This document shows positions 2,281 to 55,215 of a stretch of 64,000 nt of DNA, one piece after another. This DNA is from Bremia lactucae (taxonomy: Eukaryota > Oomycota > Peronosporomycetes > Peronosporales > Peronosporaceae). Below the pieces are notes generated by a model. It did no database searches, was not told where the DNA came from, and saw only the letters and a program-made list of their open reading frames with translations. Both the position numbers and the translations under genes were made by a program. The first letter of the stretch is position 1; every line of letters begins with the position of its first letter. Location: contig NC_090612.1 of the NCBI RefSeq assembly GCF_004359215.1, positions 297,600 to 361,599 on the forward strand. The letters run 5' to 3'.

Positions 2281-2285
2281 AACCA

Positions 2286-11688: not shown

Positions 11689-11730
11689 CCGTTTTTACAA
11701 ATTTTTGTAATCACACCCCTCTTCCTTGAA

Positions 11731-19119: not shown

Positions 19120-19243
19120 CCATCCCCCCTTAAAGAACGAATTTACATTTTAAAATTCGTTAAAGATAAAGAAGGAACTGCGAGCTGCTGTACGCGCCGC
19201 TAGTTCACTCAATCACTCTAGTGACCTGTGTTTCCATACACGG

Positions 19244-22470: not shown

Positions 22471-23720
22471 TATCTTGTCATTCTAGGCGACACGTGTGGT
22501 GAGTTTATTGCGGTCCACAGTGATGCGTGATTCGTATTAACTACAAATGGTTCGGTGCCCAATAGGTGCACACGAAACTTGACGAAGCATTCTTTATTGA
22601 AACTAGATCTTTATCATGCATGGGGTATTCAGTTCCGCGGCTTTCAAAAGCCGGGACTGATAAGAGATGACGCGGTCAACACCGTCGTCATACTTCTGCA
22701 TGAGCGCGCTGCCGATTGCAAAAAAATAACTTGCATCGCAGACGTCTGGCAATGCCAAGACCGTTGCCTCAACAAGAGATTGCTTCACTGTTGTGAGCGC
22801 ATCTTCTTGTTCTTTTAACCAAAACCATTCTGCGTCCTTTTTCAGGAGGTCAGATAATGGTTAAGTTTGCTCAGCATAATTCTTGCTATATTTATGCAAG
22901 TAATTAGCGAGTCCTAAGAATCGGCGCAAATCCTTCACATGCCGTGGGATTGGTCATAACTTTACTTTTTTTACCTTCTCTGGGTCTACTCGTACACCAT
23001 GTGTACCTACTATGCAGCCCTGAACAGATATCGCAGGGACCCCTATGACGCACTTTTGCAAGTTGGCGTTCGATTCGGCGTCCTTCAAAGTCTGCAACAC
23101 AGCGTCTAAATGACGCTTGTACGACTCTACTGCGCTCAGTCAGTCCTCAGCTCTACTATGCACGAATATGGGGCACGTAGGCACGGTGCTGACGCATCAC
23201 GTGAGCCACCACTTGGTTGACTGGTGCGTTTCTCAACCCTTGGGGCATCACAAGCAACTCCCAAAGCATAACACTTGGGGGGCTTACAGCTGTTTTGGCT
23301 ACAATGGATTCTCATGAGTACGTGATAGTAGCCATCCTTTGAATCCGACGCGGAAAAGATAGTTGACTTTCCCTATGGAGTTCAACAAGACATCTTTCCG
23401 CGGTATTAGCGTTTCCACCGGTATGGTCGCCGTGTTCAGCTTATTGTAAGCATAAACCACGCGCCATTCACCTGTGGCTTTACGCACACAAAAGGACGGG
23501 CTGCAGTGTGGTGATTTGTTCTCACGCCCATGTCCCGCCTTGGCTCGCTTGTGGAAGAACTCATCGATACAATCGACTTGTTCTTTCGGCAACAGCCATT
23601 GCCTAGTCACACAATATTTGGTGCCAGGTTCGAGGTCTATCTCGTGCCCGATGCTCATATCTGCTGGTAGGCGGATCGGCCCTACTTCTGGAACACATCG
23701 CGATGATTCCACAGAACCTC
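22470..23720 (-). pseudogene. Family A reverse transcriptase and RNase H (copy A2)
   Basis: Minus strand 23712-23299 is an uninterrupted RT N-terminal half (GHEIDLEPGTKYCVTRQWLL, FCVRKATGEWRVVYAYNKLN). The palm is degenerate at 23300-22900. RNase H (ISYQSRLLKAAELNTPCM) is at about 22700-22600. It is collinear with 55316-56200. Confidence 0.8.
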
Positions 23721-24550
23721 AAAGAACGGACTGTCTCTCAAGGCATTCAACCTTGATCAGCGAACCGTTTCTTTTTGTCCGTTTCTAGGACGCTCTCGTC
23801 CATTGTGGACGACGAGTAACAGTCCACCAAGTTCTCTTCTGGAACTGGTGTGACTATTTCGTGGATCTTTCCTTCCTTTAATTCGGCAAGGAACAGATCC
23901 CACGACATCTCCGGGAGATTTACTATCTCCTCGGCAGATTTAAAGTCTTGCCGGAGCACCTCAACTGAGGATGCCTCCGCAATTTCGTCTTTGACGGCCT
24001 CGAACACGTCGCTCGAAGGCCCGTCCTCTTTGATAGGAACTGATCCGAAGGTCACTCGTTTAGACGTGCCTTTGATCGTCCTAATCTGTCGGGTACTCGT
24101 TCTTCGAGTCACCACGACCTTTTTCTGGGAAGCGGGTGCCGCTGCACTCCTGGCTAACGCACCCCTTCCAACCGCACCAGGCTCAAGGCACTGTGCCGAT
24201 TTATGCGACGCATCAATTCCTTTCAGCTCACCGTCTACTGCCACAGGTTCCCTCTGTGCAGGACATTCGGACGCATGACTTCTTGTCATCGTCTTTTTCA
24301 CTGCCCCAGTCTCCACGAGCTGGGTAGGAATTGGTGACGTTTGACATCCCGTCAACGCACCCTCAACTGTGTTCGACACGACATCAGTTGCATACGCCTC
24401 TCGCAGGAGTACATCTTTTCCGGTGTCCTGCGTAGAGTTCGCAACTGTGCGTGTACGCCAGTCTATCCATGGTTGGTGTTTTGTCAACCATGGCATGCCT
24501 AGGATGAGGTCATACGGACTCTCCATACCTAGCACAAGAGAAGTTCAAAA
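23720..24550 (-). pseudogene. Family A protease end and linker (copy A2)
   Basis: A 262-codon open frame (24535-23747): YDLILGMPWLTKHQPWIDWR, the C-terminal half of the protease domain, then a Thr/Ser/Ala-rich linker with repeated AVKKTMTRSH and AVGRGALARSAAAP blocks, and an acidic segment (DVFEAVKDEIAEASSVEVLR). It is the longest intact piece of copy A2. Confidence 0.75.
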
Positions 24551-24795
24551 AATACAGGAATACCATTGATCTTGTGTTCATCTTCGGGAAATCCAAAACG
24601 AAGTCTATAGATTCGGATCGCCAACACTAGGCAGAGGTTGTAATGAAGCACGGGATGAAGCACTGGGCTTTACCCGTTGACAAACTTCGCAAGACTTATG
24701 TACTTACGGACGAACTCATAGTGGCGTGGCCTGTAAAATTCGCGACTTATCGTGAAATTTTTTTTCACGTCCACGATGACCACTTACTAAAGCTG
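24550..24795 (-). pseudogene. Family B/C integrase scrap inserted in copy A2
   Basis: About 245 bp resembling the reverse complement of the B/C integrase zinc-finger region (compare 2640-2800 and 36.95-37.1 kb). It splits the family A protease. Confidence 0.5.
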
Positions 24796-26190
24796 AAGGT
24801 GAGTTCTACCTGAACTCCCTCAGACTTAACGAGCGCGCCGTGCGCTAAGCGAACAGTCGCCTCCTCTCGCTTGCCATCCTGGCAAAGCGATTCAAACATC
24901 GCCGGTCTCTTTCTTAGAGCCGCGAATTTACAAAATTCTCTGATGCACCCGAATCCTCGAGAAGGGTCACCACCTGGTCATCGATTTGTATCGAACGCGA
25001 AAGACCAGCAGGGTTTGAGGTCCGAAATTTCGAGACCTCAAGGACTATGCTACACACTTGTTTGATAACTCGGAACTTAGAAGTAGCTCCATAGTCCACA
25101 TCAGTAGGGCATACCACCCCAACTGCGTTTTGCATGGTCCAAATCCTCAGTGGTCTATGCAGATCTCACACGGCTCGCACGCTGGTTCTTGCCATCGCCC
25201 TTTTGGTAGGGAGTATTCTTGCTGGGCATCTTTGCCCCAGCAGGGACCATGGCATAGCAGCGAGCCATCATATGGCCGCGCTTAAATTGCCGCATTTATA
25301 ACAGGCAACGTCTGCATCGCCCAACTCCATGGGAGTGGCATCTGACCTCTCGGCCGACGGCTTATACCAAGCTGTCGCCGAGGCACTGTTGTAGGATTGA
25401 TTCTTAACCAACGAATTTCGAATTGCCTCTACCATCGTCAACGGCACCTTTCTAAGAAGGGTCTGTCACGATGGGCCGTGTCGCAGTCCGTTGATGAACA
25501 AGGGCAACTTAATATGTTCCGGTATTGGAACCACAGTAATGGACGCCGACAGCGAGCGCATTTTCTGCATATATTCTTGCACTAATCGCTTCGCTTGTCG
25601 TGCACCAAAGAGCGCCTGAAGCAACACTTCGTCGTTTGACGGCTGATACATGGCGCAAATCTTTGTCTTAAAGATCGCCAATGAACGGAACGCCTTACCA
25701 TCAGCCATAAGCGCCGAGTATGCCCACCTTGAGGCCCTACCGCGCAAATGTGACATGGCGTACAACACCATCCGAGTGTTTTCCTCGTGAGCTACGCTAC
25801 GATGCATTGATCCATGGCTAACAGCCAGTGGACAATCCTGTGCGCTGCAGTTCCATCAAACTTGGGCGGGTCCATTCGAATGGGCCTTGGCTGATGCGGC
25901 CGGGCGGAGAGCATCTCAACAGTCCTGTCGACAGCCTCTACCGATTCTACTCACGCTTAAGCTCATCCTGAGTCTTAGTACGAACTTGGCAGCATCATGG
26001 CTCTGTGCCTCGGACGTGGCCCTTCGCTGTCAGAGCAAAATGTCTCAAACTGCTCCAAGTGAGCAATATGTGCTCAGGAAGACTACCCGAGAGCCTGGCC
26101 ACAGCTTGCTCACCAAGTCCCTGCGCCAAGTGATCTGCAACATCTGGATGATGTTGAGAGAGGTGGGGAAATGAGCCTCAATAGATATTG
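24796..26190 (-). pseudogene. Family A gag and protease start (copy A2)
   Basis: Minus strand: gag from about 26185 (GLGEQAVARL, then PIRMDPPKFDGTAAH at about 25890-25850), YAMSHLRGRASRWAYSAL and IKLPLFINGLRHGPS in 25807-25466. The zinc-knuckle area (25310-25260) is broken by a small insertion. The protease motif LLEDSGASENFV is at about 24975-24940. Confidence 0.8.
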
Positions 26191-26243
26191 AGGCTCATAC
26201 TCAGTGACACGCTCAATGAGACGGGTCGTAAGGAGGACTACGA

Positions 26244-26450
26244 GTGCTACCAAGTGAAGGCGAGCGCTACTATAGCAGCCAGGCTCTTCTTGCGCATATA
26301 CCTTCAGGCCTTGAGGAAGCGGTTCGACCGTCTTCTTTTACGTGCAGTGAGATAATTGGTGGGCGCCTACGCGACCTAACCAAACGAACTAAGTACCTTA
26401 GTAAAAGTGTCGTCACGGAAGTAGTAGTCCGTCTTCACGAGAATGGCGCG
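26244..26450 (-). repeat. Family A primer-binding site and 5' LTR remnant (copy A2)
   Basis: Minus-strand TGGTAGCACTCG at 26253-26242 is the primer-binding site. The end of a family A LTR follows to about 26450. The rest of the LTR is missing. Confidence 0.65.
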
Positions 26451-27912: not shown

Positions 27913-27971
27913 GTAGCGTGCTGAACACTTAATAAAGTGAGACATCAGCATTTACATAAACTTACAAGGTA

Positions 27972-28540
27972 TCATGTATGTTGGGCAAAAGCGTGAAGGT
28001 CACGCTTGCCCTGCTTCAAATCCATGAGCTCTGCTCGAGCCCTGAATTTGGCACGTGGTGGCTCGAAGGTTTGCATGAGCCGGGTCTTGAAGACCTCATA
28101 CGACCCAAAGGCAATCGAGTCGTGAAGCTTGAGCCTTAAGGCCCAAGATTTGATACGTCCGGCCAAGTTGTACATGCCAAACTTCAATTTCGTCGCATCG
28201 TCATGGGCTTCTATGGCGTCGTCTAAATCGACGAACCATCTCAAAAGAAAGTTGTATTCGACTGCTCTGAACTTAGAGATTTGTTTCTTTAAGGTTTCGG
28301 GTCGACGCGAAAGCGTCGGCCCGCTAGCGGAAAGATCGTGAGCCATCCAACAGATGAAAAACACAGGTAACTGTACTCATTACGGGTCATGCAGACGGTC
28401 CTGTCAAGGCTCACCCGTTCCGGATCGAATAAGAGTCGCTTGAGGAAGCGATCTCCGTAGCGGAACAGTAGGACTTTATCCTGAATCAGGCTTTCGTCCA
28501 TTCCGGTGCTTATATTCCAAGCAGACGACAAGAGAACGGA
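27972..28540 (-). pseudogene. Family C gag capsid region, second copy, inverted relative to its pol
   Basis: Minus strand 28364-27972 encodes FLLRWFVDLDDAIEAHDDAT through LMDLKQGKRDLHAFAQHT, differing from the copy at 5.08 kb by scattered substitutions and one extra codon. 28540-28365 is the same upstream sequence as 4920-5080. The zinc-knuckle region and pol that follow at 28550 are on the plus strand. Confidence 0.85.
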
Positions 28541-28550
28541 GATCCAAAAC

Positions 28551-28950
28551 CTATGGACCTCTCGTATATGGATCGTGAGAAACGTTGCTCTTCAAGTTAC
28601 AAACAAATGTTAAAAAGCGATCGTTGTCAGATAACGGGCCACTTGTAGTGCCCCACGCCCATTGCCTGGAAACTCTGAGCGAAGTGATCGACCATCCGCT
28701 GGAAACAGCGAAGACGCGGATCCGACGCCGGTACGAAATCGCAACGGCGAGGCAGATCTTCAAAAAAATGGACGGGGTTACTAAGTGTGTGGCGCCCTAC
28801 TGATCCAGCACACGTCAAAAGAATTTACAAACCTTTGGCGAAAGTTGCTCCTCACAAGAAAAATTGTGAGTAACTTCCTTAGGTGATGATTTTAACCTCA
28901 TCACCAAGAATTTTAGTTGCAAATAAATTATCTCTTTAGTCCCTTGGCGA
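28551..28950 (+). pseudogene. Family C nucleocapsid region remnant
   Basis: Matches family B 33668-34050 (starts ATGGACCTCTC in both). No intact zinc knuckle can be read; it is crossed by stops. Confidence 0.55.
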
Positions 28951-30720
28951 TTGCGGGGCGTCGAACAATTTAATACACCGCCAATCGCTAAAAGACCGCA
29001 GACTTATTTTATCGAGCGCGGTATATCCCTAACGAGGATGACAGTGCGCCTAGCAATAGGTGCATCTGTAACATTCAAGAAACATGTTGTTGGTATCCAA
29101 TACGCGTTAAAGAGTACACAGTACGATGATGATTTCATCGTACTAATTTGGATGACAAACTTCATGTCATCCTTGGATTACTATGGCTGAGAAAGTACGA
29201 GCCATGCATAAACTATCAGCATGAAGCCGTGATGATGCCTGCCTCTCGTTCATAAGAAGGCCATCTGAGTAACGTCTTTCAAGAAGTGTCATCTTTATAT
29301 ATACGTCAATGGACCTGATGGATGGATTCTATCATATCTTTATGCGTGAACAAGATACCCCGTTCACAGCAGTAAGCACTCCAAGCAGAATGATGTGGGA
29401 GTGGCTAGTTATGCAACAGAAGTGTGACCAATCTGTTAAGATCGGTGCGGGATTTTGCACCGAGTTTTTTTATGACGTCTTCGTTCATAGCAGAGCCATG
29501 AACGGAAAGTCTGACGTTGAAGTACACCGTACCCACGTCTGAAATATTCTTACACTTATGCGTAAGCATAAGTTGTATGCAAATCTCAAGAAGTGTATAT
29601 TCGTCGTAAGCGAAATACCACTTCTTAGATGCATCGTAGGTAAACACGGTGTACGCTCTGATCCTGAAAAGATCAAGACGATCAGTGACTGGTCTGTGCC
29701 AGTCGATATAAAGGGACTTTTTAAGTTTCTCGGCTTAGCGGCGTACTTACATAAGTACTCCCGCAATTATTCCGAAACGAAAGTACATATTTCGCTTTGT
29801 TTAAATAAAAGTGTAAAGCGGTCATGGTTCGCTGATTGTCAGCATTCTTTGGAAGGTATCAAACAAAGCTTGATGCAATCGACTGACATGACAATTTCGG
29901 ACCAAGACAGACCGTTTATGTGAAGGTGGCGGCAGCGATTTAGCAATCGGCTGTGCGCTAATGCAACATGACACAGACGGCGAGAGCGCGCCGTCTGCTA
30001 TCAATCTCGTCAGCTTCAACCAGCTGGACGCAATTACCCAGTGCATGATAAGGAAGTCCTTGCCATGAAATATGTACTGGCTACGTTCAGAATCTATCTC
30101 TCATGGAGATAGACCGTTCATTGTTAATACGGACGATGCGTCTTCCACACATCTCCAAAAGAATGGCGAGATGGTTTTAATTTATTGCTGAGTAAGACTT
30201 TTCCCTTGAATACAAACCAGACGACCTAATGTCGTCGCTGATGCTTCTTCGCGCCGGCCCGATTTTGAGCCGGCTGCGCAAACCAACAGTGCACTGTTGC
30301 AACAATACTTGTTCCGTCGTCAACATTACTAGACGACGTTAGAAGAGCCGATCAAGAAGATAAGGATTTTAAAGGGTTGACGGATTAGCTTAGAAAGTCA
30401 TCACAACAGTTCTTGAAAAATTGTTAAAATTGTATCGATCGTCAACGGATCGATACATAACACGCAATGGGTTACTGTATTACACAGCCATTGCTGGTGA
30501 CATACCTCGTGTCGTCATTCCCACCCATAATGATTTGCGTTTACGCATCATGTATGAGTGCAAAGATGCACCAATAAGTGGGCATCGTGGACGTGAGAAA
30601 GCTTAACTCACGATATGCCGCGACTTCTACTTGCCACGCCAGTATGATTTCGTCCCCAATACAAACTTGCTTGCAAAGTTTGTCAACGGGTGAAGCTCAA
30701 GACTTTATCCGGTGCTCCGG
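28951..30720 (+). pseudogene. Family C pol remnant, second copy (PR, RT, RNase H, INT)
   Basis: Protease-region sequence at 28951-29190. RT from 29309 (MDLMDGFYHIFMREQDTPFT), with a damaged YFDD equivalent (FFYDVFVHSRAM) near 29467 and KLYANLKKCIFVVSEIPLL at 29567-29625. RNase H (GCALMQHDTDGE) is near 29950. The integrase zinc region (NDLRLRIMYECKDAPISGHRG) is at about 30525-30595. Interrupted by stops. It is the reverse-complement partner of 2.6-4.5 kb. Short inverted repeats are dense here too, e.g. 29554-29573, 29588-29626, 29743-29758 and 30093-30113. Confidence 0.85.
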
Positions 30721-31092
30721 TACAACTTTTGACTAGTGTTGGCAGCCCGTATCTATGACTTCGTCTTTCGATGTCCTGATGACGAACGTAGTTTGAGCCA
30801 TCAAAGGCTCAATCCGAAAATCGGAGTCCTTTCTTGGGCTAAAGCTTGTTAAACTATGTTATCCTATGAGCTTGAAGATGGGCTTACGGTCGGGATTGCA
30901 AACAGGAAAGTGAGTTGTGTTTTGAGGATATCTCGATCCTACCGTTAACATCTATCCTACCGTTATCTCTTTCCTATCACGCGGTGCGCCCCTTACTCAC
31001 ATACGTGGACCACCATAAAATGGGAAACGTCACTGTCTGGCAGGACAGTGCTGATAAATCCCAACCACCAGTAACCGAAGGTCTTACGTTTT

Positions 31093-31163
31093 GTCGTTGC
31101 CGGGTATCGAACCGGTGACTTGTGGGATGGCACTACCATGCCTTCCCGACTGAGCTACAGCAC
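31093..31163 (-). repeat. tRNA-like, SINE-type head (second copy)
   Basis: Reverse complement of the element at 2286-2355. Perfect A box (minus strand TAGCTCAGTCGG, 31157-31146) and B box (GGTTCGATACC, 31113-31103). Confidence 0.5.
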
Positions 31164-31538
31164 ATTATTTATGCTACACACTATTTCTCCTTATCATGCC
31201 TTCCAGACGATCCCTTTACTTTCATGTGTATATATCCTTAAACACTCATGTGCATAATGCGCAAAACTTTGTACACATCGTCTACAACAAATTTTTCATT
31301 GGCAAGAGCTCTATCCAACTTGTAAGAGAGTAGACGTTTCTGCGAGGTATCTCTTTGAGGATACGATCTGTACGTTCTGTCTGACCATTTGTTTCAGATG
31401 GTCGGAAATTGACATTTCACCTGTGTACCAAGCTATTTGAACACTGATTGCCAGAACTCCGCCGTGATTTTGGGGTATCAATCGAAGACTAGTTCACGGG
31501 ATAACCTAAGGAGTCGAAATATCGTTTTAACAAAGACA

Positions 31539-31859
31539 ACTTAATATGTATTGCGAGCGTATCTTTCGAGATACCTCGCGTAACGGATAACGCTAGGCGT
31601 CATCTTCTCTAATGGGAAGGCACCTAAGGGCACCACATATGTAACGGGGCACTGCCGACTGTACTGTTTCAGTACAAGTCCACTTCGCACTGCTTTAGTG
31701 CGAGTGGTGCCTCGCGTCAATACACGTACACTAGTACGTGCAGATGAATACTCTCTTTATAAACACTTGCTTTAAAAAGGGTTAAAAGTAAACTGTATAT
31801 ATTACGTAATTCAGTTCTTCTGTTTCTATCTATTTAATACTATTTTAATTATAACTAAT
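31539..31859 (-). repeat. Family A LTR scrap and truncated family B LTR
   Basis: 31539-31638 matches the middle of family A LTRs in reverse. 31640-31859 is the 3' half of a family B LTR in minus orientation (starts TGTAACGGGGCAC), cut off by the plus-strand family B LTR at 31860. Confidence 0.6.
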
Positions 31860-32297
31860 TGTAACGGGGTGTATCGTTACATGAAATTAACACTTAAAGG
31901 TTGTTTATTAATATATTATCTAAAAGTTAGATAATATTTGGAGGATATTGCTTTACATGGTAATATTCTAAAGGCTTATCCATTAATAGATATAGACCAT
32001 TATATCTACTTTCTCCGCGGTCCAGTCAGCGCTGGAGGCGCGCAAAGAGAAAGACAGATAAGACTTTTAGTACATATTTTGTGCTAGTTTATAATTAAGC
32101 TAGTATTAGTAGATAGAAAAGTAGAGCTTAATCATATCAATACAGTTTTATTTAACCCTCTTTAAAGCAAGTGTTTTAAAGGGAAGATTTCCTCTGCACG
32201 TACTAGTGTACATGAAGTGACGTGAGGCACCACTCGCACTGCGGCAGTGCGAAGTGGACTTGTACTGAAGCAGTACAAGTCGTTGTGCCCCGTCACA
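31860..32297 (+). repeat. Family B 5' LTR (element B1)
   Basis: 438 bp from TGTAACGGGGTGTATCGTTACA to ...GCCCCGTCACA. The first 22 bases form a hairpin (TGTAACG / CGTTACA). Near the end are further hairpins (ACTTGTACT / AGTACAAGT at about 32258-32280). The partner 3' LTR is at 39738-40147. Confidence 0.85.
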
Positions 32298-32299
32298 CC

Positions 32300-32311
32300 T
32301 GGTAGCACTTT
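32300..32311 (+). promoter_or_regulatory. Primer-binding site of element B1
   Basis: TGGTAGCA two bases after the LTR, complementary to the 3' end of initiator tRNA-Met. Confidence 0.7.
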
Positions 32312-32469
32312 GTAGCACTTTGTAGTCCGTCCAAGGACCACATTTCCTTCATCTTTCATGGACATGTTAGATGATAGTGGGGATACGCATCACGTGAGAG
32401 CTACTCCTTTCTAAGTGACATAGAAAGGAGTGCGGTCGAACGAATAAGTTCGACCGTAGGAAACGATGC

Positions 32470-33001
32470 AATCTTGGCAATGCTGTCCAATTTGGACAGA
32501 GATATGCCCTCCATTCAGCCATCGCCAAGTTCTTACAACATGAACTTGACGAGATGAAGGAGAAGGTAGCCTTGCTGCATCAGCAAGGCTCTCAACAGGC
32601 AGAACTGATGAGGTTTCAACAGGTACAGACCCCTGTACCTGGGATGACGCAAACGCATCGTCCCGAAACCGTAAAGAATGACACCTAGGGGAGTAAAAAA
32701 AGACTCCCTCTTGAGATGGTTTGTCGAGTTGGATAATGCCATAAAGGCACGTCACATTGTCGACGAGCAAATGCAAGTCGCATTCGCTCAATCAAATTCG
32801 GCAGGTCGTGGCAAAACTTGGGCATTGGGCCTTAAGTTGCGCGACCCATACGTCTTTGGGTCGCTAGAGGCTTTTAAAGCCCGGCTCAAACAGACGTTTA
32901 AACCGCCAAGGGCTGAGTTCAGAGCTCGATCAGAGCTTCTGAAACTCAAGCAAGGCAAGCGTGATGTTCACGCATATGCCCAGCACATACGACTCTTAGC
33001 G
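32470..33001 (+). pseudogene. Family B gag (element B1), 5' part
   Basis: A helical segment (KFLQHELDEMKEKVALLHQQ, about 32530-32590) precedes a stop. ATG at 32678 opens the capsid frame: DSLLRWFVELDNAIK, then GRGKTWALGLKLRDP, FKARLKQTFKPP and LLKLKQGKRDVHAYAQHIR, running into the assembly gap at 33002. It is homologous to family C gag. Perfect inverted repeats include 32841-32864 and 32869-32881. The frameshift before 32678 makes it unlikely to be functional. Confidence 0.85.
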
Positions 33002-33664
33002 NNNNNNNNNNNNNNNNNNNNNNNNNNNNNNNNNNNNNNNNNNNNNNNNNNNNNNNNNNNNNNNNNNNNNNNNNNNNNNNNNNNNNNNNNNNNNNNNNNN
33101 NNNNNNNNNNNNNNNNNNNNNNNNNNNNNNNNNNNNNNNNNNNNNNNNNNNNNNNNNNNNNNNNNNNNNNNNNNNNNNNNNNNNNNNNNNNNNNNNNNNN
33201 NNNNNNNNNNNNNNNNNNNNNNNNNNNNNNNNNNNNNNNNNNNNNNNNNNNNNNNNNNNNNNNNNNNNNNNNNNNNNNNNNNNNNNNNNNNNNNNNNNNN
33301 NNNNNNNNNNNNNNNNNNNNNNNNNNNNNNNNNNNNNNNNNNNNNNNNNNNNNNNNNNNNNNNNNNNNNNNNNNNNNNNNNNNNNNNNNNNNNNNNNNNN
33401 NNNNNNNNNNNNNNNNNNNNNNNNNNNNNNNNNNNNNNNNNNNNNNNNNNNNNNNNNNNNNNNNNNNNNNNNNNNNNNNNNNNNNNNNNNNNNNNNNNNN
33501 NNNNNNNNNNNNNNNNNNNNNNNNNNNNNNNNNNNNNNNNNNNNNNNNNNNNNNNNNNNNNNNNNNNNNNNNNNNNNNNNNNNNNNNNNNNNNNNNNNNN
33601 NNNNNNNNNNNNNNNNNNNNNNNNNNNNNNNNNNNNNNNNNNNNNNNNNNNNNNNNNNNNNNNN
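33002..33664. other. Assembly gap (663 N)
   Basis: Undetermined bases inside element B1 gag. Open frames that seem to cross it on either strand are artefacts of translating N. Confidence 1.
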
Positions 33665-33930
33665 AACCCATGGACCTCTCTTACGTCGAAAGCGAGAAAC
33701 CTCGCTTTTCGAGCAATAAGCGATTGCAGAAATGCCATCGCCGCCAGAAATTAGGACACTACGATCAGGAGTGTAGTGCCCCACGCCCAGCACCGAAAGG
33801 CACTGAACGTAGTTTTGGACCGTATGCCAAAAAGGGCAACGGTCGCGGGTCCGACGTTGTTGCGAATCGCAACAGCGACGCGGACCGCCAGAAAACGGTC
33901 AAGGTCAGTAGGGGCGCAACGCTCTACTGA
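33665..33930 (+). pseudogene. Family B nucleocapsid region (element B1)
   Basis: From ATG 33670 the frame reads a Ser-rich lead, then KCHRRQKLGHYDQEC at about 33732-33775. This is a retroviral-type zinc knuckle C-X2-C-X4-H-X4-C in which the second Cys is replaced by Arg (TGC to CGC). A basic tail follows, to a stop at 33930. Confidence 0.75.
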
Positions 33931-35160
33931 TCCAGCAACCTCAAGAGAATTTGCAAATCAAGTTGCTCCAGACACACAATCAATATGTGTCTGCACCTGG
34001 TGATGAGGGATACCTCATCACCTTGAAATTAAAAGTGACAAATGATTGTCACTTAGAGCCCTAGTGGACTGCGGAGCGTCGAATAACTTTATTCGTCGCC
34101 AGTCACTAGAGGGTCGTAGGCTCAAATATCTTGAGCGCGACATCCCTCCAACGAGGATGACGGTGCGTCTAGCGACATGCGCATCTATAACAGTTATGAA
34201 ACGCGTAGTGAAATTTCACATGTTAAAAGATTTACATAACGATGATGATTTCATCGTACTGGATTTGGATGACAAATTTGATGTAATCCTAGTTTACCTT
34301 GGCTCAGCAAATACGAGCCAAGGATCAGCTGGCAGCATCGATCCGTAAAGATGCCTGCCACTTGTTCATCAGAGGGCCATCTGATGAACGTCTTGGAGCG
34401 TCCACAAGCGTTTGGATGTACTACGAGTGAGTGGGATGGCCTCACTTGTGGTACGGTCGCTAGTACAACCGCACAAGATCACAGTGTGATTACTAATCAC
34501 ACTGTGGCGTCAGCTGCCGGCGGCTGTGCGAATGCACAGGTAGCGCCGAAATTTCACCACTCGAAGAAGTCGAGTGGATTGAGACATGAATGTACGCTTA
34601 GCGGGCGACATTCAAGGATGATACCGGTTGCCCAGAAGGGGCATCACGATAATCCTAGGTCAAGTAGAGAGTCGACCGTAGAGGACCCGACTGTGATAGT
34701 GCAACCACACTCGGAAGACGTTGAGGGAATAAGTTTCCACGTACTTGAAGAGAAAACTCCTCAAATAGTAAATGCTGAAGTGAATAGACTTCAGTTTTTC
34801 GAGGAATTAACCCCTCGGCAGCCTGTGGATAAATCCTTGAAAGAAGAAACCGAGACATTGATAGTCGTGGTTAATGACGGCTCAAGCGTAGGCGCTTATA
34901 CGCTTGATCCGTATGCGCCCCCGAAGTAACTTCGGAGATAAATCAATTACCAACCCTAAGACACAAGCGGTTCTTAAAAGATCTGCATAGTGGTAGAATC
35001 AAGCAGATCTGCGTACTCGTCACAGAGGACGAATACGTAACCGATATACGGTCAGCGGTAATTTTTGCAGAGAACGAACGGGTTCTCAGCAGCTCATCGA
35101 TGGACGAAAGTGTCCTCGATGTGAAGACTCGGATTGAGAGATATGAGAGAGATACAACTC
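33931..35160 (+). pseudogene. Family B protease and linker (element B1)
   Basis: The aspartic protease region opens at 34046 with LRALVDCGASNNFIRRQSL; the usual DSG is DCG here. It ends near 34348. A 192-codon linker frame (34351-34929) follows, rich in Thr, Ser and acidic residues, ending before RT. The bases contain many hairpins, e.g. CGATGA / TCATCG near 34242-34257. Confidence 0.7.
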
Positions 35161-35164
35161 AATC

Positions 35165-36700
35165 CTGGGAGTCAATGAAGACAATCCTTTATATAAGGAT
35201 TTGATTGAATTCAGTTATGTAATCTCTGAAACAGTTCCATGCGAGTTGCCTAAAGATAAAGGCACTCGACATGAGATCGAGCTCAAACCGGGATCGAAGT
35301 ACTGTGTCATGAAGCAGTGGCCACTGCCTCGTGAACAAGTACTTGCGATCGATAAAAGCTTTATCAATCGATTAAAAGCGGGCCATGTGAGGGAGTCAAC
35401 CTCCCCACATAGCTCTCCGACCTTCTGTGTGTGAAAGGCCACAGGAGGGTGGCGGATAGTGCACGCATTCAATAAACTGAATGCTGCTACGGTATCGGCT
35501 CAAACGCCGATACCTAGAAAAGACGTACACATAGATGGTACGTCTAAGAGTACCATCTTTCATCCATGGATCTGATGGATGGATTTTATTAGATCCTTCT
35601 GCGTGAACGGGACATCCCGTACACAGCAGTGAGCACTCCTAGCGGAATGCTCTAGGAATGGCTAGTAATGCCACAGGGGCTTAGTAACGCCCCTGCACCA
35701 TTCAACAGATGCGTAACGAATCTGTTGAGACCGGTGCGAGAATTTGCGAGAATTCGCACCGAGTTATTTTGACGATGTATTCGTCCATCGCCGAGCCATG
35801 GACGGTAAGACGGACGTGGAAGTTCATAAAACTCACGTTCGTCAGGTTCTTACACCTTTGCGAAAGCATACGTTATACGCAAATCTCAAGAAGTGTATAT
35901 TCGCTGTAAGCGAAATACCACTTCTTGGGTGCATCATCGGTAAACACGGCGTGCGCCCTGACCCCAAGAAATCAAGGCAATTACCGACTGGCCAGTTCCA
36001 GTCGATGCCAAGGGACTTAAAAAGTTCCTCGGATTAGCGGCGTACTTGCACAAGTACTCCCGCAATCTTGCCGAGATGACAATTCATTTCTCTCGTCTCT
36101 TGCAAATAGACGAGAAATGGCAATGAAACGCTGATTGTCAGCGTTCCTTTGAAGATATCAAGCAAAGCTTGATGCAATCGCCCATTTAGCGATTGCAAAT
36201 CATGACAGACCATTCCATGTGGGCTTTGACGCCAGCGATTTCGCAATCGGCTGTGCGTTAATGCAATACGATACAGACGGCGCGGAGCGCGTCGTCTGTT
36301 ACCAATCGCTCCAGCTGCAACCAGCTGAACGCAATTACCCAGTGCATGAAAAGGAACTTCTTGCCATGAAATATGAACTGGCTAAGTTTAGGGTCTATCT
36401 CCTCGGAGATAGACTGTTTATCGTATATACGGACCCCATGCGTCATTTCGCACCGCCGTAAATAGCCCACACCTCTCGCAAAGAATGGTGAGGTGGTCTA
36501 CCTTTTCGCGGAGTATAATTTCTCCGTGGAATATAAACCAGGACGACTAAATGTCGTCGTTGATGCGTTATTACGCCGACCCGATTTCGAGCCGCCTGCG
36601 CATTCCAACAGTGGTAATAATCCCACAGTTGCAACACTCATTTCAAGTGCTCCGTCATCAACCTTATTTGATGACATAAAGGAAGCCTACGCAGAAGATA
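35165..36700 (+). pseudogene. Family B reverse transcriptase and RNase H (element B1)
   Basis: RT: GTRHEIELKPGSKYCVMKQW at about 35260-35320, then SPTFCV, a stop, and KATGGWRIVHAFNKLNAAT. A stop also falls in the MDLMDGF segment. The catalytic motif YFDDVFVHRRAMDGK is at about 35765-35810. RNase H: GFDASDFAIGCALMQYDTDG at about 36222-36280, then ERNYPVHEKELLAMKYELAK and YTDPMRH. At least five stops or shifts, so inactive. This stretch shows the densest hairpin pattern in the window: twelve perfect inverted repeats with arms of 7-9 bp between 35465 and 36414. Confidence 0.9.
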
Positions 36701-38640
36701 ATGACCTTTGCGTTTAAAGGATCATCTGATGAATCCATCCGATAATTATGTTGAAGATTTACCGGCTTTATATCGCTCGTCATCCGATCGATACACAACA
36801 CGCAACGGCATATTGTATTACACAGCTGTTGCCGGCGACACTCCACGTGTAGTCGTCCCAACTCACAATATTTTGCGCTTGCGCATCATGTATGAGTGTC
36901 ACGATGCACCAACAAGTGGGCATCGTGGACGTGAGAAAAACTCATCTCACAGTAAGTCACGAACTGATACTGGCTTCGCCAGTATCAGTTCGTGCGCAAC
37001 TACATTCGTGCTTGCGAGGTATGTCAACGGGTGAATCCTAGTCCGTCTTCCCGTGCACCTCTCCAACCTCTACCAGTGTTGGCAGTCCGTATCTATAGAT
37101 TTCGTCTTCGGATTTCCCAAAGACGATCACAAAAACAATGGTATCCTTGTTTTTGTAAGCAGATTCAGCAAGATTATACATCTTGCTGCAGTACCAGAGT
37201 CAATCACGGCTCCGGGCTGTGCTCGTGTCTTTATCGACACGGTAATCAAACTCCACGGGTTACCCCGTGAACTGGTCTCGGATAGAGATCCACGGTTTAC
37301 GGCGAAGATTTGGCAATCCGTGTTCCGATCTCTCGGAACACGGCTGACTATGTCAACTTCTGATCATCCAGAGACAGATGGTCAGACGGAACGCGTAAAT
37401 CGCGTCCTCGAAGAGATACTTCGAGGTTACGTCCAATCGTATCCGAACTGGAGCGAGTTTTTACCGATGGTCATATTCGCCATCAATAATTCGGTGCATG
37501 CGTCTACGACGCATACCCAACCAATTAGAGGGACCCTCTATTTAAGGGTTGAATCGCACAAGCAAAACCATTTCTGGCTCATGATCATCACGCGTCGAAG
37601 TTAACAACGACGCGAATGATATCGATGTCGAAGCAATCGACATCGAAGTTGAGAAAACTCTTATGGCAGTGCGCACAAAGCGCACTGAAAAAGACAAAAC
37701 AAATGAGTCAGCAGAGGAACTTCGGCTGACTCGAGAATCAGTAATCCGTTTCGTACAGGATTCCATTGCTAACGCAGTGGACCGTCAGAAACGGAACGCA
37801 GACAAACATGGAAGAGCAAACGTTCTTTCATTAAAGTTATTGCCCCAATACTACTCTCTACGGATAACTTACCTAAGCGTGTCGTCATTAATGTGGGTAG
37901 CAGTAAACTATTACCCAAATTCATTGGACCATTCCGTGTACTGCATCGCAGAGGCAATGCGTACACAATAGAATTGCCACGTAGGATGCGAACGCATCTT
38001 ACGTTCTACGTTGTTCGGTCGTACAATCAGTACGCGGTTTCTTCCGAGGACGGATCTGACCACCCTCTTCAAGAATCCCTAAAAGACTCTTGTGGTCACG
38101 AACCAGAATCTCATGCTGAATCTGGAGATTCTCATGTCGGGTCCGAAGGTCCTCGAAACCGCGGTGAGCTGACGACAGCTCATCACGAAGAGCGTGACAA
38201 TTCCGTTCGTACTACAACATAGAGCACGCACTCTTCGAACGGTCTTCTAACCGTTCGATATGGTGAGCATGCACCGTCTGCTCTAACGAGCGACGCTTAC
38301 CGCGCTCTGATCAAGTCCCTCCTCCAAATTATGGAGAAGCGATTGAGTTTGTCGATCTTCGACTCTAGATCCGACACATGGGTCGGATCTACTTTTCCCT
38401 CCTCCGCCACAACCATTGGTGGATCCCCACGGTGGTCAACGTTTCCATGTTGAACATATCCAAAACCACCGTGATGTGAAGGGGCAGCGAACGAGTTATC
38501 TTGTTCTCTGGCGCGGTTATCCACCTTCACATGACAGCTGGGAGCCTCGTTCCCAGAAGGTCCATCGAAAAACACGCGCCGTTGGCGCCTGTAAATCGAT
38601 TGAAAAACGTCAATCGCATCGCGCATCCCGATAGAGATGC
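36701..38640 (+). pseudogene. Family B integrase and chromodomain (element B1)
   Basis: Zinc-binding region: LRLRIMYECHDAPTSGHRGR near 36870-36930, then a frame break at a 37-base perfect hairpin (36958-36994), then NYIRACEVCQRVNPSPSSR from 36998. The core lies in 37053-37604: SVSIDFVFGFPKDD, ELVSDRDPRFTAKIW, ETDGQTERVNRVLEEILRGY, which retain the D, D and E of the DDE triad. The C-terminal region (LLPKFIGPFRVLHRRGNAYT) is at about 37900-37965. The chromodomain (RFHVEHIQNHRDVKGQ, then YLVLWRGYPPSHDSWEPRS) is at about 38437-38560, overlapped by the antisense ORF. Confidence 0.9.
36958..36994. repeat. 37-base perfect hairpin inside integrase
   Basis: Seventeen-base arms around a TTC loop: CACGAACTGATACTGGC and its exact reverse complement. 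Homologous family C copies (about 2780-2820 and 30610-30650) have only the inner TACTGGC / GCCAGTA pairing or less. The extended left arm replaces the expected RDFYW codons and breaks the frame. Confidence 0.85.
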
Positions 38641-39620
38641 GAGCCCTTCCCCAGGGCAAAGAAAGGAAATAGACATCCCCTTTTACTCGCTTCGTGTTGT
38701 CAACACAACACGGACAGGGATCACCCCACGTAAGACATCGAAGTCCTGCCTCACGTGACAACCGATGCAATTTATATCTTGCACTGGTTATAGTTCGTTT
38801 CTCAAACTTAACGCGAATCGCGTTAAGTCTATGAAGCCAGGCTTCGCGTCCAATGTTTTTGACATTGCGAATGAACGCGTTCCAGGCTTGCATAAGCTAG
38901 ACTTTGTCTTCCTATTGTTGCCACTATACCATCGATTGAAAAAAGCATCAAGATAAAAATCTTCCTCAGCGAGAAAGTTCTTCGCGCTGGGATCAAGGCC
39001 ATGTAGCTTTGTCGCAAAAATAAGAGATATTTATTGTGAGGAGTAGACTCTCCAGACAAGAAATTATTTGCTGCTCGGGTACAAGCCACGGCTTCTTCTC
39101 AGGAGCAAGACAATACATTTTAGTGTCTACGATCCCCTGGGTGGTACCCACTGAAGCACGGGTACGACAAGAACTTATATTACGATGGCTTACGCCATTG
39201 TCATCACCAAGCACAGAAATATGTGCGGGTGACGGCACGGGAGACGGTGCTGGCGATGAGGAATCATTCTCATCGTCGGAACCGAACATGCTGTAGCGAA
39301 TGCTACCAGCACGTCTACTCGAACGAGCCCCCTCATTCGAAGGGCTCATATTCAGCCGCCTGCCAATGATCAGGCGACTGTTCTGTTCTCCCCGAGTCGG
39401 CCATTTCGTCCGACTCGCATTCGTAGTCGACCTCCAAAGAGGGGTCGCATTCACGTGGCGTATCACCACGTGCGTCCGCAACATTTAGAGTTGCGGGAGA
39501 AGGTGACACTACGGCAGACGGAACGTCTGCCGCAAGAGACAATAATGCGTCGCCCGCGGCTGCATGAACCGCAGCCGAAGGCGCCGCACTAGTCGCATAC
39601 CGCATGGACTTGTTAACCAT
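38297..39620 (-). CDS. Antisense ORF of family B (element B1), broken
   Basis: Starts ATG at 39620, 118 bp from the 3' LTR, and reads back into pol. Parts: 39620-39333 (Ala/Ser-rich, then acidic VDYECESDEMADSG), 39484-38993 (SDDENDSSSPAPSPVPSP, EKKPWLVPEQ), then 38893-38297 (AWNAFIRNVKNIGREAW, KLHRLSREAGLRCLTWGDPC, PCCVDNTKRVKGD, and a last segment DLESKIDKLNRF). The Cys cluster CLTWGDPCPCC could bind metal (inference). The last part overlaps the chromodomain on the plus strand. A second copy is at 54107-55099. I recognise no family. Confidence 0.6.
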
Positions 39621-39723
39621 GCGATATATTTAAAAATGATAAATCTGACCAATCAAAATCTTTTTTAATGAAGTGGTCTTATAGTGACCACTCTACCCAA
39701 TGGCATTCAGAGTGATTGTCGTT

Positions 39724-39737
39724 TAAGGGAGGGGTGA
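39724..39737 (+). promoter_or_regulatory. Polypurine tract of element B1
   Basis: TAAGGGAGGGGTGA adjoins the 3' LTR. The same tract, reversed, follows the family B LTR at 53988. Confidence 0.7.
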
Positions 39738-40147
39738 TGAAACGGGATGTATCGTTACATGAAACTAACACTCAAAGGTTGTTAATTAATATATTATTCA
39801 AAAGGTACATAATATTTGGAGAATATTACTTTACATGGTAATATTATAAAGGGCTTATCCATTGCTAGATATAGACCATTATATCTGCTATCTCAGCGAT
39901 CCAGTCAGCGCTGGACGCACGCCAAGAGAAATACAGATAAGACTTTTAGTACATATTTTGTATTAGTTTATAATTGAAGAAGAACCTAATTATATTATTG
40001 CAGTTTTTATTTAACTCTCTTTAAAGCAAGTGTTTTAAAGGGAAGACTTCCTCTGCACGTACTAACGTACGTGAAGTGACGTGAGGCACCACTCGCACTG
40101 AAGGAGTGCGAAGTGGACTTGTACTGAAGCAGTCAAGTCGCGTTACA
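39738..40147 (+). repeat. Family B 3' LTR (element B1)
   Basis: 410 bp from TGAAACGGGATGTATCG to ...GTCGCGTTACA, collinear with 31860-32297 but lacking some bases near its end. The bases flanking the element (ACTAAT and GGTGTC) do not form a target-site duplication, so one boundary has been rearranged. Confidence 0.8.
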
Positions 40148-40331
40148 GGTGTCCACTGATTTTGAATCATTCGTCGCTGTCACGCTTAATGTCGTAGAAT
40201 CAGTTGGCCCGGGAATATCTTTCGAGATAATGTCGATTGCTGAATCTGGTTCTTTATTGACTCAACGTTTCTTTGCTGAAGTCCTGGAAGCAATAGCAAC
40301 AGCGTCTAACGTTTCTTGCGTCGAGGTCTAG
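40148..40331 (+). pseudogene. Possible 3' end of a host gene cut by element B1
   Basis: Sixty codons open directly from the LTR edge (40149) to a TAG at 40329-40331, ending NVSCVEV. It is hydrophobic with regular composition and starts exactly where the retrotransposon ends, which suits a truncated coding exon. No similarity recognised; it could be chance. Confidence 0.25.
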
Positions 40332-40442
40332 CTAGACATTTTCTTAAATAATCTGTTTCTTTCTACATCTAACCATTTTGACGAGAGGTTTAGGGGGAAA
40401 TTTGCCTTCTTCAAAAATTTCAAAAATGTACAAAACTCGACG

Positions 40443-40489: not shown

Positions 40490-42436
40490 ATGAGCACTCG
40501 CGTGTTTGTCCGGCTTTACGATGGCACAATGCAGAATGAAACAGGTGACGAGGTACTCGAGCTGCCGCCACCACCACTTAAGTGGAAGTGCGCTATTACT
40601 GCCATGGTGGCGGCGTTGAGTAAGCAGACTGAGTACGAGGACGGCGTGACGACGCCAAAGGCGCGTCTCTTTCTTTTGCCGACAGAGACAACCGGTATCG
40701 CAGCTGAGGTAAGTTTCATGCTGCGAAATGATTCCACGGCACAATTTATCTAATAGTTTTGTTTGGGTGTGAATTTATAGCTTAATGCCCGATCGCTGCG
40801 CTTTGGTGTTCGTGAGAACGACCGTTTCGTAATTTGTTTACGTGGTGAAGATTATCAGCAGCCTAGCGAGCGTCAAACTGATATAATGTTTACAAGTACC
40901 ACTGAAATCTCGAACAGGCCATTACCTGGACCATTAAAGCCTAGCAATGTCAGCTCGCAATCTACTATCGCGCACTGTTCTAGTGTCCAAAGTTCTGGCG
41001 ATTACGGAATGGATGGAGCGAGAAAAGAACCCCCTCGAGGTGGAATGGGATTCGGCATTTCGTTAGAGAAAGTTAATAGGTGTAAGCGATACCGTAGTAT
41101 CTCTGGCAAGATGGCTGCTATCAAATCGCTAGGTGATAAAGGTCTAATATCCAACGTCGATCGAGGACACCTGAAAGATCTGCTTTTGAATGATGACTCG
41201 CCTCAGCTACAAGAAGCACTGGACACGTATAAAAATACTGGTGACTTTCAGGCAGTTAAAGACCTGTTGCTAAGGGAGATAAATAATCCGTCATCAAAAC
41301 GCAACAGTGGTGATTGGCTTTCAGAAAGTTTTGTCAACGAAATTGCTCTTAATCTCATCCCCTCGCCACAAGCTACTAAGCGTGAGCATATGCCCTTGCA
41401 AAAGGATTTCAATCTGGGTCGTATCAATGACGTATCTGCAGCTTTGAACGCACCGACTAATGCATTTGCCTACCAGACGAGTCAATCAGCGTCGATAAAG
41501 GATACAAGCTACGCACAGAGTTCTCCCGACGCATTTAATTACTATTCAAGTCTTCGAAGTCTAGAAGCTCCTGCTGCTGCTGGAAGTTTCTTATCCATTA
41601 ACAGATTCCCTACTGAAATTTCTATATTAAATGGCTACTCGTCTTCACCTATGATGACACAGCAGTATCACCAGCCACAATTTTCAACAAGCAATATGTA
41701 CGCTCCACAAATCAACCAACCTCTTCGGGATGGCGCATACATGAAGCGTGATTTTGAATCGGATTCAGCTCAAAATTTGAGAGGTATGGACTCACTTGCC
41801 GGTTCACTTGCAGGACCCGCACATTTGACACTGAATGGTTACAGCTCACAGCAAGACTTTTCTATGAATCAAGTGCCGTATCCAGCAAATGTTATATACC
41901 AGTCCCAGCAGCCCTTGAATTCGCTGACGCCCGCCTCCTTAAATGACTTCGGCTGCAACATTTACATGCAGCAGCCTCAATATGCTTTAAATCGATACGG
42001 ATACGGCAGTATGCAGCCTGACACGGGATATAATTTTTACGCTGCAGGTTATGGATTTGATAAAGCTCAACTTCGAGCAGGCCCTGGAGGAAAATGGACC
42101 ACTGCACCACCGACGCCTTCGTACCCTCCGGCGTGCTCAAAGGAAGAAAAGAAGGACAAAATTTCCAGATGGTTGAAAAAGCGCGAAAATCGCAACTGGT
42201 CCAACAAGCCTTCGTATCCTGTGAGGCACAGTATCGCCAAAAATCGAAAGCGAGGAGAAGACGGTCGTTTTATTACGAAAGCGCGCCTCGCTGAGATGGC
42301 GGCTGAAGAGGCCGCCATGGATGTTGGAAATGAAATTAAGCCGCAGACGGCATCTCCTCCGCCGTCTTCTTCTGGCGATGCTGCCGGCTTCGCAACCTCG
42401 CAAAAAAACATGCTGCCTATTACGTCCGTACCGTAG
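40490..42436 (+). CDS. CCT-motif protein (putative nuclear regulator)
   Basis: Two exons, 40490-40708 and 40781-42436, joined over a 72-bp GT-AG intron (gtaagt...tatag) to give 624 residues. The first ATG is at 40490; the upstream in-frame GTG is not used. Residues 1-110 form a compact region without clear family (FVRLYDGTM, RSLRFGVRENDRFVICLRGE). Around residues 145-205 is a helical block (MAAIKSLGDKGLISNVDRGH, LKDLLL). The middle is long and Gln/Tyr/Pro/Ser-rich. Residues about 530-575 match the CCT motif of CONSTANS/TOC1-type proteins: KISRWLKKRENRNWSNKPSY, then RHSIAKNRKRGEDGRFITKA. CCT motifs act in nuclear localisation and DNA or partner binding in plants. A transcriptional role here is inference. 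The bipartite basic stretch inside the motif could serve as an NLS. Confidence 0.8.
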
Positions 42437-48075: not shown

Positions 48076-49421
48076 TCACGACTGAGCAGGCATGGTAAGT
48101 CTGCGCTTCAAGGTGTCCTCGAGACTTGCGCTCGAGCTGTATGTACAATCAGAGCTACTGGTACGACGATAAGAGAGCGAGCGATAGCGAACGTCGTCGT
48201 TCAGCTGGCTTGAAAGCTTCGAGCACAAATCTTCCGCCTGATAGCTAGAAATAGCAGTGACATTGTTTTCAACTGACCTTTCGAACCAGTTGTGCGACAA
48301 CAGATCTGTAATCGTCGGCCTCATTTGTGCATCTGCCACTAAAATTTTCATGAGCAAATCTCTTGCCTGGTTGGAAATGTATGCAGGAAAATTGATGCGG
48401 TTGCGCGATACATCACGGCGCAGCCGGTGAAAATTCGAGTCGTCGAAAGGGGCGCATCCTGTTAAGAGCGCAAAGATCAACACGCCTACGCTCCAAACAT
48501 CAGCAGGTCCGCCAAGAAAACCATTGCGAGCAGCCTCAATCGATGTATGGAGGAACAAAATCTCAGGGCTGCAATACAATGGTGTACCACATACCGTCTT
48601 GAGTGGCTGATCCGGACAGGTCACTACTTCGGATAAGCCAAAGTCAATAAGTTTCACTTTCAGGTCTTTGGTAATCATAACGTTTTCCAGCTTTAAATCT
48701 CGGTGATATATATTACGATGGTGAAAGTACTCCAGTGCTGACAGCAGCTGTTGGAACACACCAACAGCTACGTTCTCTGGCATTTTACCGTTTTCAAGAA
48801 GATGCTCTAGAAGATCCGATCCTCGTACAAATTCTTGGACGATGCAAATGCGGTGCGAAGTCTCGTAAGCACCCAAGTACTTAACAATATTAGGATGGTC
48901 GAGAGACTTGGCAATCTCCAGCTCCGATACGAGTTTCAACAGGCGTCGACGTACACGGTCAACAGCCTTCTCGATTACGTATTGACCGTCTGCTACCATA
49001 GACCGGCGCGCCTCCACCATTGAGGCTTTATCAAAAACCTTGACCGAGACGTACCTACCCGATTTAGTCTCAACTGCTTCATACACTTTAGATGTAGCAC
49101 CAGTGCCCAGCACACGCACGAACGAGAGCTATAACATTCAAATAAAAGACGTTAGTGTTCAGCCGCGTTGTACGCCACTAAAAATTGCAAAATCTGTCGT
49201 TTACATACATGCTGATTAAGCTCTTCCTCGCTAATTACATCGCCGATGAGCGCTCGAAGCCTGTCGTCGATCGACAGCTTAGATAGCTTCTTATGACGTG
49301 ACAAACTTCTACGGTCCAGGAGCGCTTGGCATTGAGAGGCATTTTGGGGTGAGACGCGTCGCTCGCTCATGCAAAAGATAGACGCGTAGTTGTCGATCAA
49401 CTTATTAAGAAGCGATGTCAT
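48076..49421 (-). CDS. Serine/threonine protein kinase, CAMK-like
   Basis: Minus strand, exons 49421-49209 and 49128-48076 with an 80-bp GT-AG intron (gtatgt...ttatag), 421 residues. Residues 1-71 are a non-kinase N-terminus. The kinase domain spans about 74-290: glycine loop VLGTGATSKVYEA, ATP-anchoring K101, an unusual insert of about 30 basic residues before helix C, catalytic loop YHRDLKLEN with D215, DFG-type motif IDFG 232-235 and SPE 258-260 in place of APE. HRD-LKLEN with the CGTPLYCSPE activation loop suits the CAMK/SNF1-like group. The C-terminal 60 residues are Ser-rich. All catalytic residues are present, so it should be active. Substrate unknown. Confidence 0.85.
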
Positions 49422-51593: not shown

Positions 51594-51646
51594 CTTGGTA
51601 GCACTTGAAATCCTTCCCACAACCCGCATCTCTGCGAGTGTACGTG

Positions 51647-53988: not shown

Positions 53989-54106
53989 TCACCCCTCCCC
54001 TTAAACGACAATCACTCTGAATGTCATTGGATGGAGTGGTCACTATGTGACCACTTAATTTAAAAACGATGTTGATTAGTCAGAACCATCATTTTAATTC
54101 CGTCGC

Positions 54107-55099: not shown

Positions 55100-55107
55100 N
55101 TAGTGCT

Positions 55108-55187: not shown

Positions 55188-55215
55188 ACCTTCAGTTCCA
55201 TTTCCCGCAACACAA

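Follow-up and report, generated by a model that had tools for sequence, protein, structure and literature searches.

Ordered RNA structure on the scale of a whole genome is known from RNA viruses. Structured RNAs tolerate G-U pairs, and the arms of Dicer substrates and microRNA-like hairpins measure some 20 bp or more. Isolated cases of template switching at inverted repeats are known. Homogenisation of the two arms and inversion of the spacer by this route are described for yeast genes and RNA genes (PMC8604942, PMC8794818), and the yeast account gives significant template-switch support for 30 of 68 yeast genes, with ten spacer inversions (PMC8604942). For yeast Ty3 RNA about 24% of the nucleotides are reported to lie in highly probable pairs (PMC11381356). 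No description of a hairpin-saturated oomycete Gypsy element, or of such a retrotransposon in general, was found in our literature searches, in agreement with the preliminary description of the present DNA, which knew of none.

The DNA analysed here, referred to as the window, is a stretch of 64,000 nucleotides from Bremia lactucae (contig NC_090612.1, positions 297,600 to 361,599). It contains one long copy and one fragment of a Ty3/Gypsy element, family B, together with two copies of family C. Hairpin densities in parts of the long B copy refer to arms of at least 7 bp.

31860-40140, plus strand: family B Ty3/Gypsy element with chromodomain, degraded, with LTR pair, Pfam domains and hairpins over its entire length
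31860-32297, plus strand: 5' LTR of B, 20.5 hairpins per kb
34046-38640, plus strand: B protease-to-chromodomain coding part, frames broken in the window copy, 12.8-13.8 hairpins per kb
35460-36420, plus strand: RT-RNase H stretch in which the hairpins were first noticed, 15 perfect hairpins, each with arms of 7 bp or more
38641-39736, no strand assigned: B 3' region with antisense ORFs, 15.5 hairpins per kb
39737-40140, plus strand: 3' LTR of B, 22.3 hairpins per kb
53557-55099, minus strand: second family B fragment (3' part and LTR), 13.6 hairpins per kb
2156-5523, minus strand: copy of family C, its aligned parts about 77% identical to B, 5 hairpins per kb
27918-31289, plus strand: family C copy, 5 hairpins per kb

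With its LTRs, gag, protease, RT, RNase H, integrase and chromodomain, B is a Ty3/Gypsy element with a chromodomain, of the kind named chromoviruses. The two LTRs are about 85-90% identical. The order gag, protease, RT, RNase H, integrase was found, with positions taken from the window and single domains partly from sister copies. In the window copy Pfam matched RT_RNaseH, rve and Chromo, the last behind the integrase at 38347-38634 (44.7 bits, cut-off 25.1); RVT_1 fell below its cut-off, and 663 gag bases are N. Among the sister copies, gag and protease were matched in L017, RVT_1 and RNase H in L026, and the integrase zinc finger in L016, where rve was below cut-off. Two antisense ORFs (38297-38893 and 38993-39484, minus strand) lie in the 3' part, the former without a Pfam match, and a frame of L026 ends, by eye, in a related peptide. 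An inverted LTR fragment (31640-31859) adjoins the 5' LTR, its positions 31640-31854 being 82% identical to 32089-32297 reversed.

A genome search with the 961-base RT-RNase H stretch, in which 40 of 3728 first-pass candidates were scored, gave at least 41 matches with identities of 84-100%, counting that of the window itself. Twenty copies were fetched with their flanks; L052 and L055 had been fetched as controls and proved to be B. Among the best 120 of 1283 protein matches to the RT of a B copy, the best named relative was from Peronospora matthiolae (87% identity), with others from Pythium oligandrum (83%) and Phytophthora (about 64-73%), and an unnamed protein was 96% identical over 82% of the query; the same 120 included related RT proteins from Peronospora, Phytophthora, Globisporangium, Pythium and Aphanomyces. 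No relatives in viral contigs were matched by the patterns used.

All twelve inverted repeats listed in the preliminary description for 35460-36420 were found in place and perfect, with arms of 7-10 bp and loops of 2-14 nt. Counting non-overlapping hairpins with arms of at least 7 bp and loops of 2-16 nt gave 15 in this stretch, versus a mean of 0.6 and a maximum of 4 in 100 dinucleotide shuffles, so that the earlier chance estimate of 0.8 was about right. Five hairpins had arms of at least 9 bp, versus 0.07 in the shuffles. The same stretch held 5 to 16 hairpins in the 20 fetched copies (0.45 to 0.95 shuffled), and 1 and 7 in two more distant copies at 75% identity. Of the twelve hairpins, nine retained 6 or more consecutive pairs in 13-18 of the 21 B rows counted, a number that does not include the two 75% copies. 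A further one, 35732-35761, was shared with a shorter loop by 16 of 23 rows; the window copy has here a 10-bp insertion, resembling a tandem duplication, which extends the shared loop from 4 to 14 nt. The full arms of 35491-35514 and 35521-35545 were found only in the window copy, and for the latter 6 pairs were kept in 5 of 21 rows.

35491-35514, plus strand: 9-bp hairpin perfect only in the window copy, with one C.A stem mismatch in most other copies

The whole element is saturated with hairpins, and these are shared among its copies and in part with family C. A column table anchored on the window was built from 20 loci together with the window copy and the second B fragment of the window, at a mean depth of 14.5, using pieces of at least 79% identity that did not largely overlap a better piece, and a site was accepted when each of its pairs was Watson-Crick in at least half of the copies with letters there. 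It contained 161 sites with at least 6 pairs, 118 of them with arms of at least 7 bp, versus 15-19 and 3-5, respectively, when false rules (mirror and two wrong complements) were applied to the same table. This corresponds to about one hairpin per 47 nt over the 8-kb element, and to 47% of the covered bases. The shared arms are 6-13 bp long and mostly end at 6-11 bp, with loops mostly of 2 to 10 nt. Hairpins are present in every part of B, more numerous and longer in the noncoding LTRs and leader (19-22 per kb, arms of at least 7 bp) than in the coding parts (13-18). Among the B hairpins with arms of at least 7 bp that could be aligned to C, 15 of 33 keep at least 6 consecutive pairs there (0 of 96 in slid controls), and thus some are old while others have turned over. 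A loopless 13-bp palindrome was observed at L024:3352-3377 and also in L014, L015, L026 and L028, with 12 bp in L027.

The spacing of hairpin centres has a coefficient of variation of 0.52, versus 0.51 for random non-overlapping placement. A regular array or packaging lattice was rejected on this ground, and shielding of siRNA targets was rejected because 66 of the 161 gaps between hairpins exceed 21 nt.

Hairpin density falls from B (10.5-13.6 per kb) through C (5) and A (2.4-3.2) to host sequence (1.0). Against shuffled controls the values were 10.5 versus 0.76 for B, 13.6 versus 0.94 for its second fragment at 53.6-55.1 kb, 5.0 versus 0.79 for C, and 2.4-3.2 versus 0.7-0.8 for the contrast family A (6617-11689, 18586-26421 and 51038-59557). 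The host region at 40.5-49.4 kb had 9 hairpins in 8.9 kb, or 1.01 per kb versus 0.90, and is in this unlike B. The extent given in the preliminary description, namely B with its LTRs and antisense ORF, and C, but not apparently the host genes, therefore holds in its main lines; however, C has only about half the density of B, and A is also raised.

The coding sequence does not explain the hairpins, since 25 open frames (25.6 kb) held 235 of them versus 25.5 in codon-preserving shuffles, the control proposed in the preliminary description. These frames were the 25 longest of 47 stop-free frames from the B loci and the window copy, taken unaltered, with the 22 shorter ones left out; two of them (462 and 457 aa, from L011 and L015, which may lie outside B) hold only 2 and 1 hairpins. 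Three host ORFs had 3, 2 and 1 hairpins versus 0.8, 0.8 and 0.6 in codon shuffles, in total 6 versus 2.2, which are small numbers. Among them are two host genes on the minus strand, 40886-42436 and 48076-49119, which encode a CCT-motif protein and a protein kinase and account for the 3 and 1 hairpins versus 0.8 and 0.6. With dinucleotide shuffles, codon-preserving shuffles and false pairing rules taken together, chance and composition were rejected.

Other elements and places in the genome were compared in the same way. Twelve loci, labelled as probable non-LTR from the length of their RVT_1 match, had 25 hairpins in 45 kb versus 38.9 shuffled. The Gypsy-like L043, L044, L045, L054 and L056 were at chance, L041 and L042 had 2.7-3.3 hairpins per kb, and the family A-like L053 had 2.0. 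The Copia-like L046-L048 had 1.3-2.7 per kb (0.6-1.1 shuffled), with just 2 to 4 hairpins each. Among three arbitrary places one was at chance, one was all N, and one had 4.7 per kb and is similar to the terminal parts of family A, which are probably its LTR. L049, all N, does not enter the densities. DNA at the copy loci that is unlike the window had 1.9 hairpins per kb versus 0.96 shuffled, while window-like DNA had 8.4; flanking DNA thus stands, as does host sequence, at a much lower level than B. At 63023-63940 the window has a fragment of another Gypsy family, 76% identical to L041/L042.

The hairpins do not have the appearance of a sense-RNA structure under selection. If secondary structure were selected in the sense (genomic) RNA, in the form of ordered genome-scale structure or dispersed packaging signals, this could account for the pairing-preserving double changes described below and for folding z-scores of the sense strand between -3.6 and -4.9 in five B segments, versus about 0 in two host segments. 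However, the antisense strand folds about equally well. The sense and antisense scores were -3.9 and -4.6 in pol, -4.9 and -4.9 in L010, -3.9 and -4.2 in L016, -3.8 and -4.1 in the B 3' region, and -3.6 and -2.7 in the 5' LTR, the last from 4 windows only; C had -2.3 and -2.4, and the segment of A that was tested had -2.6 and -2.0. No advantage of sense over antisense was found in pol, L016 and the 3' region, where antisense was slightly better; the LTR was opposite. The arms are Watson-Crick paired, and G-U was no commoner than A-C in three comparisons. At the first unpaired position outside the stems, G-U accounted for 22.6, A-C for 34.5 and other combinations for 94.2 of about 151, near the values expected from composition (15.8% G-U and 17.4% A-C). 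Single stem changes in 33 diverged pieces were 235 A-C, 229 G-U and 345 other, and family C, at B stem pairs with single changes where both C copies agree, had 14 G-U, 21 A-C and 32 other. In the opposite direction, 10 of the 161 stems (arms of at least 6 bp) resumed beyond one outer mismatch, versus 2.5 expected, though this mismatch was mostly not G-U (G-U 1.1 and A-C 4.5 of 10). The spacing of the hairpins is irregular, and no Rfam family reached its gathering score in 31500-40400. On these grounds we consider selection on the sense RNA very improbable, and the packaged-RNA structural code suggested in the preliminary description is disfavoured by the lack of G-U preference, the like folding of both strands and the random spacing. 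Its other suggestion, a defence against or target of small RNAs, gained no positive evidence, as the gaps above 21 nt are many and the shared arms of 6-13 bp do not have the length of Dicer-substrate or microRNA-like hairpins.

Between individual copies we observed rewriting of single arms, inversion of loops and an inverted insertion with a nearby template, and these support the third reading in the preliminary description, the footprint of a copying error. The hairpins concerned that have coordinates in the window copy are:

36958-36994, plus strand: perfect 17-bp hairpin, present in the window copy alone of 17 aligned copies, left arm rewritten
33999-34022, plus strand: 10-bp hairpin with the 4-nt loop inverted in the window copy (GATA versus TATC in 7 of 10 loops; GATC in L026)
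36173-36197, plus strand: hairpin common to most copies, with an inverted loop in L019 by copy comparison
37318-37343, plus strand: 11-bp hairpin with the loop inverted in L009 and two L026 pieces, two exact and one with a further change

In the first of these, the left arm of the window copy has 3 substitutions and an insertion of 1 bp, and every one of these changes helps to make it fully complementary to the right arm. In the 16 other copies the right arm is the same apart from scattered private changes, and the left side pairs over about 7 bp. One of the three substitutions is also present in L028, and two loop bases differ as well, which the arm rewrite does not account for. Further one-arm clusters of 2 to 4 stem-completing changes were found in L019, L020, L025 and L017, among them private clusters with 3 or 4 changes in one arm in L019 (34384), L020 (39284) and L025 (38140). 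The L019 and L020 clusters have one further change in the other arm, and the one in L025 includes loop changes that template switching does not explain. L021 carries a private 19-nt insertion which is the reverse complement of adjacent sequence, contains L021's own variants and is absent from 12 other aligned copies, and L018 has a foldback whose arms measure 34 and 24 bp; both could be assembly chimeras.

Loop inversion was examined for loops of at least 4 nt, with the flanks checked. Nine of 740 non-modal loops, at 7 of 128 sites, came nearest to the reverse-complemented modal loop, while the same 740 loops gave 1 for the reversed and 0 for the complemented decoy. At 512 pseudo-sites the count was 3 of 2519, with reversed also 3, and the difference between real and pseudo-sites was significant (Fisher p 0.0002, or 0.002 with one count per site). 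The clearest cases are the exact inversions in L026 at 32433 (6 nt) and in L019 at 38538 (7 nt), and 4-nt loops are inverted in L016 at 33719, in the window copy at 33999, and in L009 and L026 at 37318. The inverted loop at 36173-36197 in L019 is one base shorter, and an inner pair of the hairpin is altered on both sides. Since the inversion at 37318 is present in more than one copy, it is probably one inherited event that arose in a replicating lineage and was passed on through replication.

Double changes that preserve pairing numbered 101 in the relatives versus 25-35 in slid controls, although these cells are not independent because the relatives overlap, and 69 versus 16-34 among the B copies; the comparison with relatives used blast pieces of more than 250 columns and below 78% identity. 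Template switching predicts such changes just as RNA selection does. Against template switching, compensatory changes lean to transitions (79 versus 22; single changes 463 versus 341). A permutation test gave 20 hairpin-completing private clusters of at least 2 changes versus 17.2 +/- 3.2, and 7 of at least 3 changes versus 3.7 +/- 1.9, a weak and not significant excess; the test is conservative, because under its null a shuffled change frequently recreates the same base. Outside the shared sites, 21 hairpins with arms of 8 bp or more were counted in 120 kb, about the shuffle rate of 0.18 per 0.96 kb. From these two results it follows that events per copy are few, and most of the hairpin pattern is inherited from the source lineage.

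In noncoding parts of the relatives, stems picked by majority pairing diverged by 0.105 versus 0.142-0.151 for loops and spacers, and stems are less diverged in coding parts too. This may reflect purifying selection on the stems or a bias from the way they were picked. Read as selection, it would accord with a strand-symmetric advantage of the hairpins, felt by the two RNA strands alike or by single-stranded cDNA, for instance by shielding sense and antisense RNA from silencing or by compacting cDNA, with template switching merely supplying the variants. Because such hairpins would be useful on both strands or in cDNA, only Watson-Crick pairs would count. The persistence of B hairpins in C beyond the slid controls, the clustering of arms at 6-11 bp and the folding of both strands far better than shuffles agree with this, as do the less diverged stems of coding and noncoding parts. 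Nevertheless, the random spacing and the many gaps above 21 nt mean that there is no tight shield or lattice, and the loop inversions and the rewrite with an inserted base are marks of a process acting without evident benefit. We regard selection of this kind as unlikely, though it deserves to be weighed seriously; it overlaps with the explanation that we prefer, and the probabilities of the two need not total one.

The two LTRs of a copy are identical at insertion and so record what came after. In five well-paired within-copy LTR couples, 379 stem pairs had 5 double changes (about 4.8 expected, worked by hand), one of which keeps pairing, so that no post-insertion excess of paired double changes was seen in this comparison of low power. 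A sixth LTR pair, that of L019, which does not enter the expected value and at 76% identity is perhaps not from one insertion, has 5 doubles, 3 of them pairing-preserving. With the same low power, the result fits a process acting before insertion. It bears on a further alternative, that the switching was done by host replication or repair on the integrated copies and not in reverse transcription. Inverted-repeat template switching by host polymerases is described in the yeast account (PMC8604942), and the flanking DNA stands at twice its shuffle level. Against this, the trait is lacking in the host sequence and the probable non-LTR RT loci, both noted above, as well as the post-insertion excess in the five LTR pairs, at low power. 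An origin in host replication or repair is in our judgement quite improbable.

Our preferred explanation, which we consider probable without being certain of it, is that the hairpins are mainly the accumulated footprint of recurrent inverted-repeat template switching during the copying of the element. Where an inverted repeat is imperfect, the growing strand would fold back on itself or jump to the complementary strand, and one arm would be copied from the other, so that the arms become perfect complements; the same switch could add or remove bases and leave the loop inverted. Repeats made perfect in this way would presumably act as better substrates, and hairpins would therefore accumulate in the replicating lineage and be re-perfected after mutation, while dead copies would inherit them and then decay. 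As the trait follows the element family, we infer that the switching takes place in reverse transcription, carried out by the enzyme of the element itself, and this process alone, without selection for hairpins, may suffice to hold 161 of them. A pure drive of this kind does not predict arms mostly ending at 6-11 bp, and the doubled hairpin level of the flanking DNA relative to its shuffles also speaks against the explanation. In a more far-reaching form, which we put forward only tentatively, a palindrome drive would be at work: the replication machinery of this oomycete Ty3/Gypsy clade would switch so often that its genome becomes tiled with perfect hairpins, balanced only by protein coding and limits on stem length, and the resulting two-strand hairpin genome may be co-opted, for example against silencing.

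The marks in B are those of quasipalindrome correction as described for yeast and RNA genes (PMC8604942, PMC8794818), with homogenised arms, multi-base changes in one arm (36958-36994 and the other private cases), indels and loop inversion, and without G-U intermediates being required; an inverted insertion with a template was seen in L021 and a foldback in L018, either of which may be an assembly error. Unlike those cases, B is saturated over a whole 8-kb retrotransposon, with hairpins common to many copies. Hairpin saturation also sets it apart among the Ty3/Gypsy elements with a chromodomain, and none is mentioned in the outlined yeast Ty3 RNA structure (PMC11381356). The folding energy of B is far below that of shuffled controls over coding sequence. 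In this it is like the ordered structure known from RNA viruses, from which it differs in being nearly strand-symmetric, with short perfect stems and no G-U preference.

The class of mutation is thus a known one, and its dominance over an entire retroelement has, as far as our searches show, not been described. With related RT proteins in several oomycete genera, public genomes offer a way of testing the template-switch reading. Template switching appears to have shaped a mobile element in its entirety, and the many copies of this element are replicates within one genome. If the element's RT is responsible, B would be a natural record of an enzyme's foldback error, and dense, covarying and perfectly paired structure could arise without selection for RNA folding, which calls for caution with methods in which compensatory changes are taken to prove that an RNA structure is functional.
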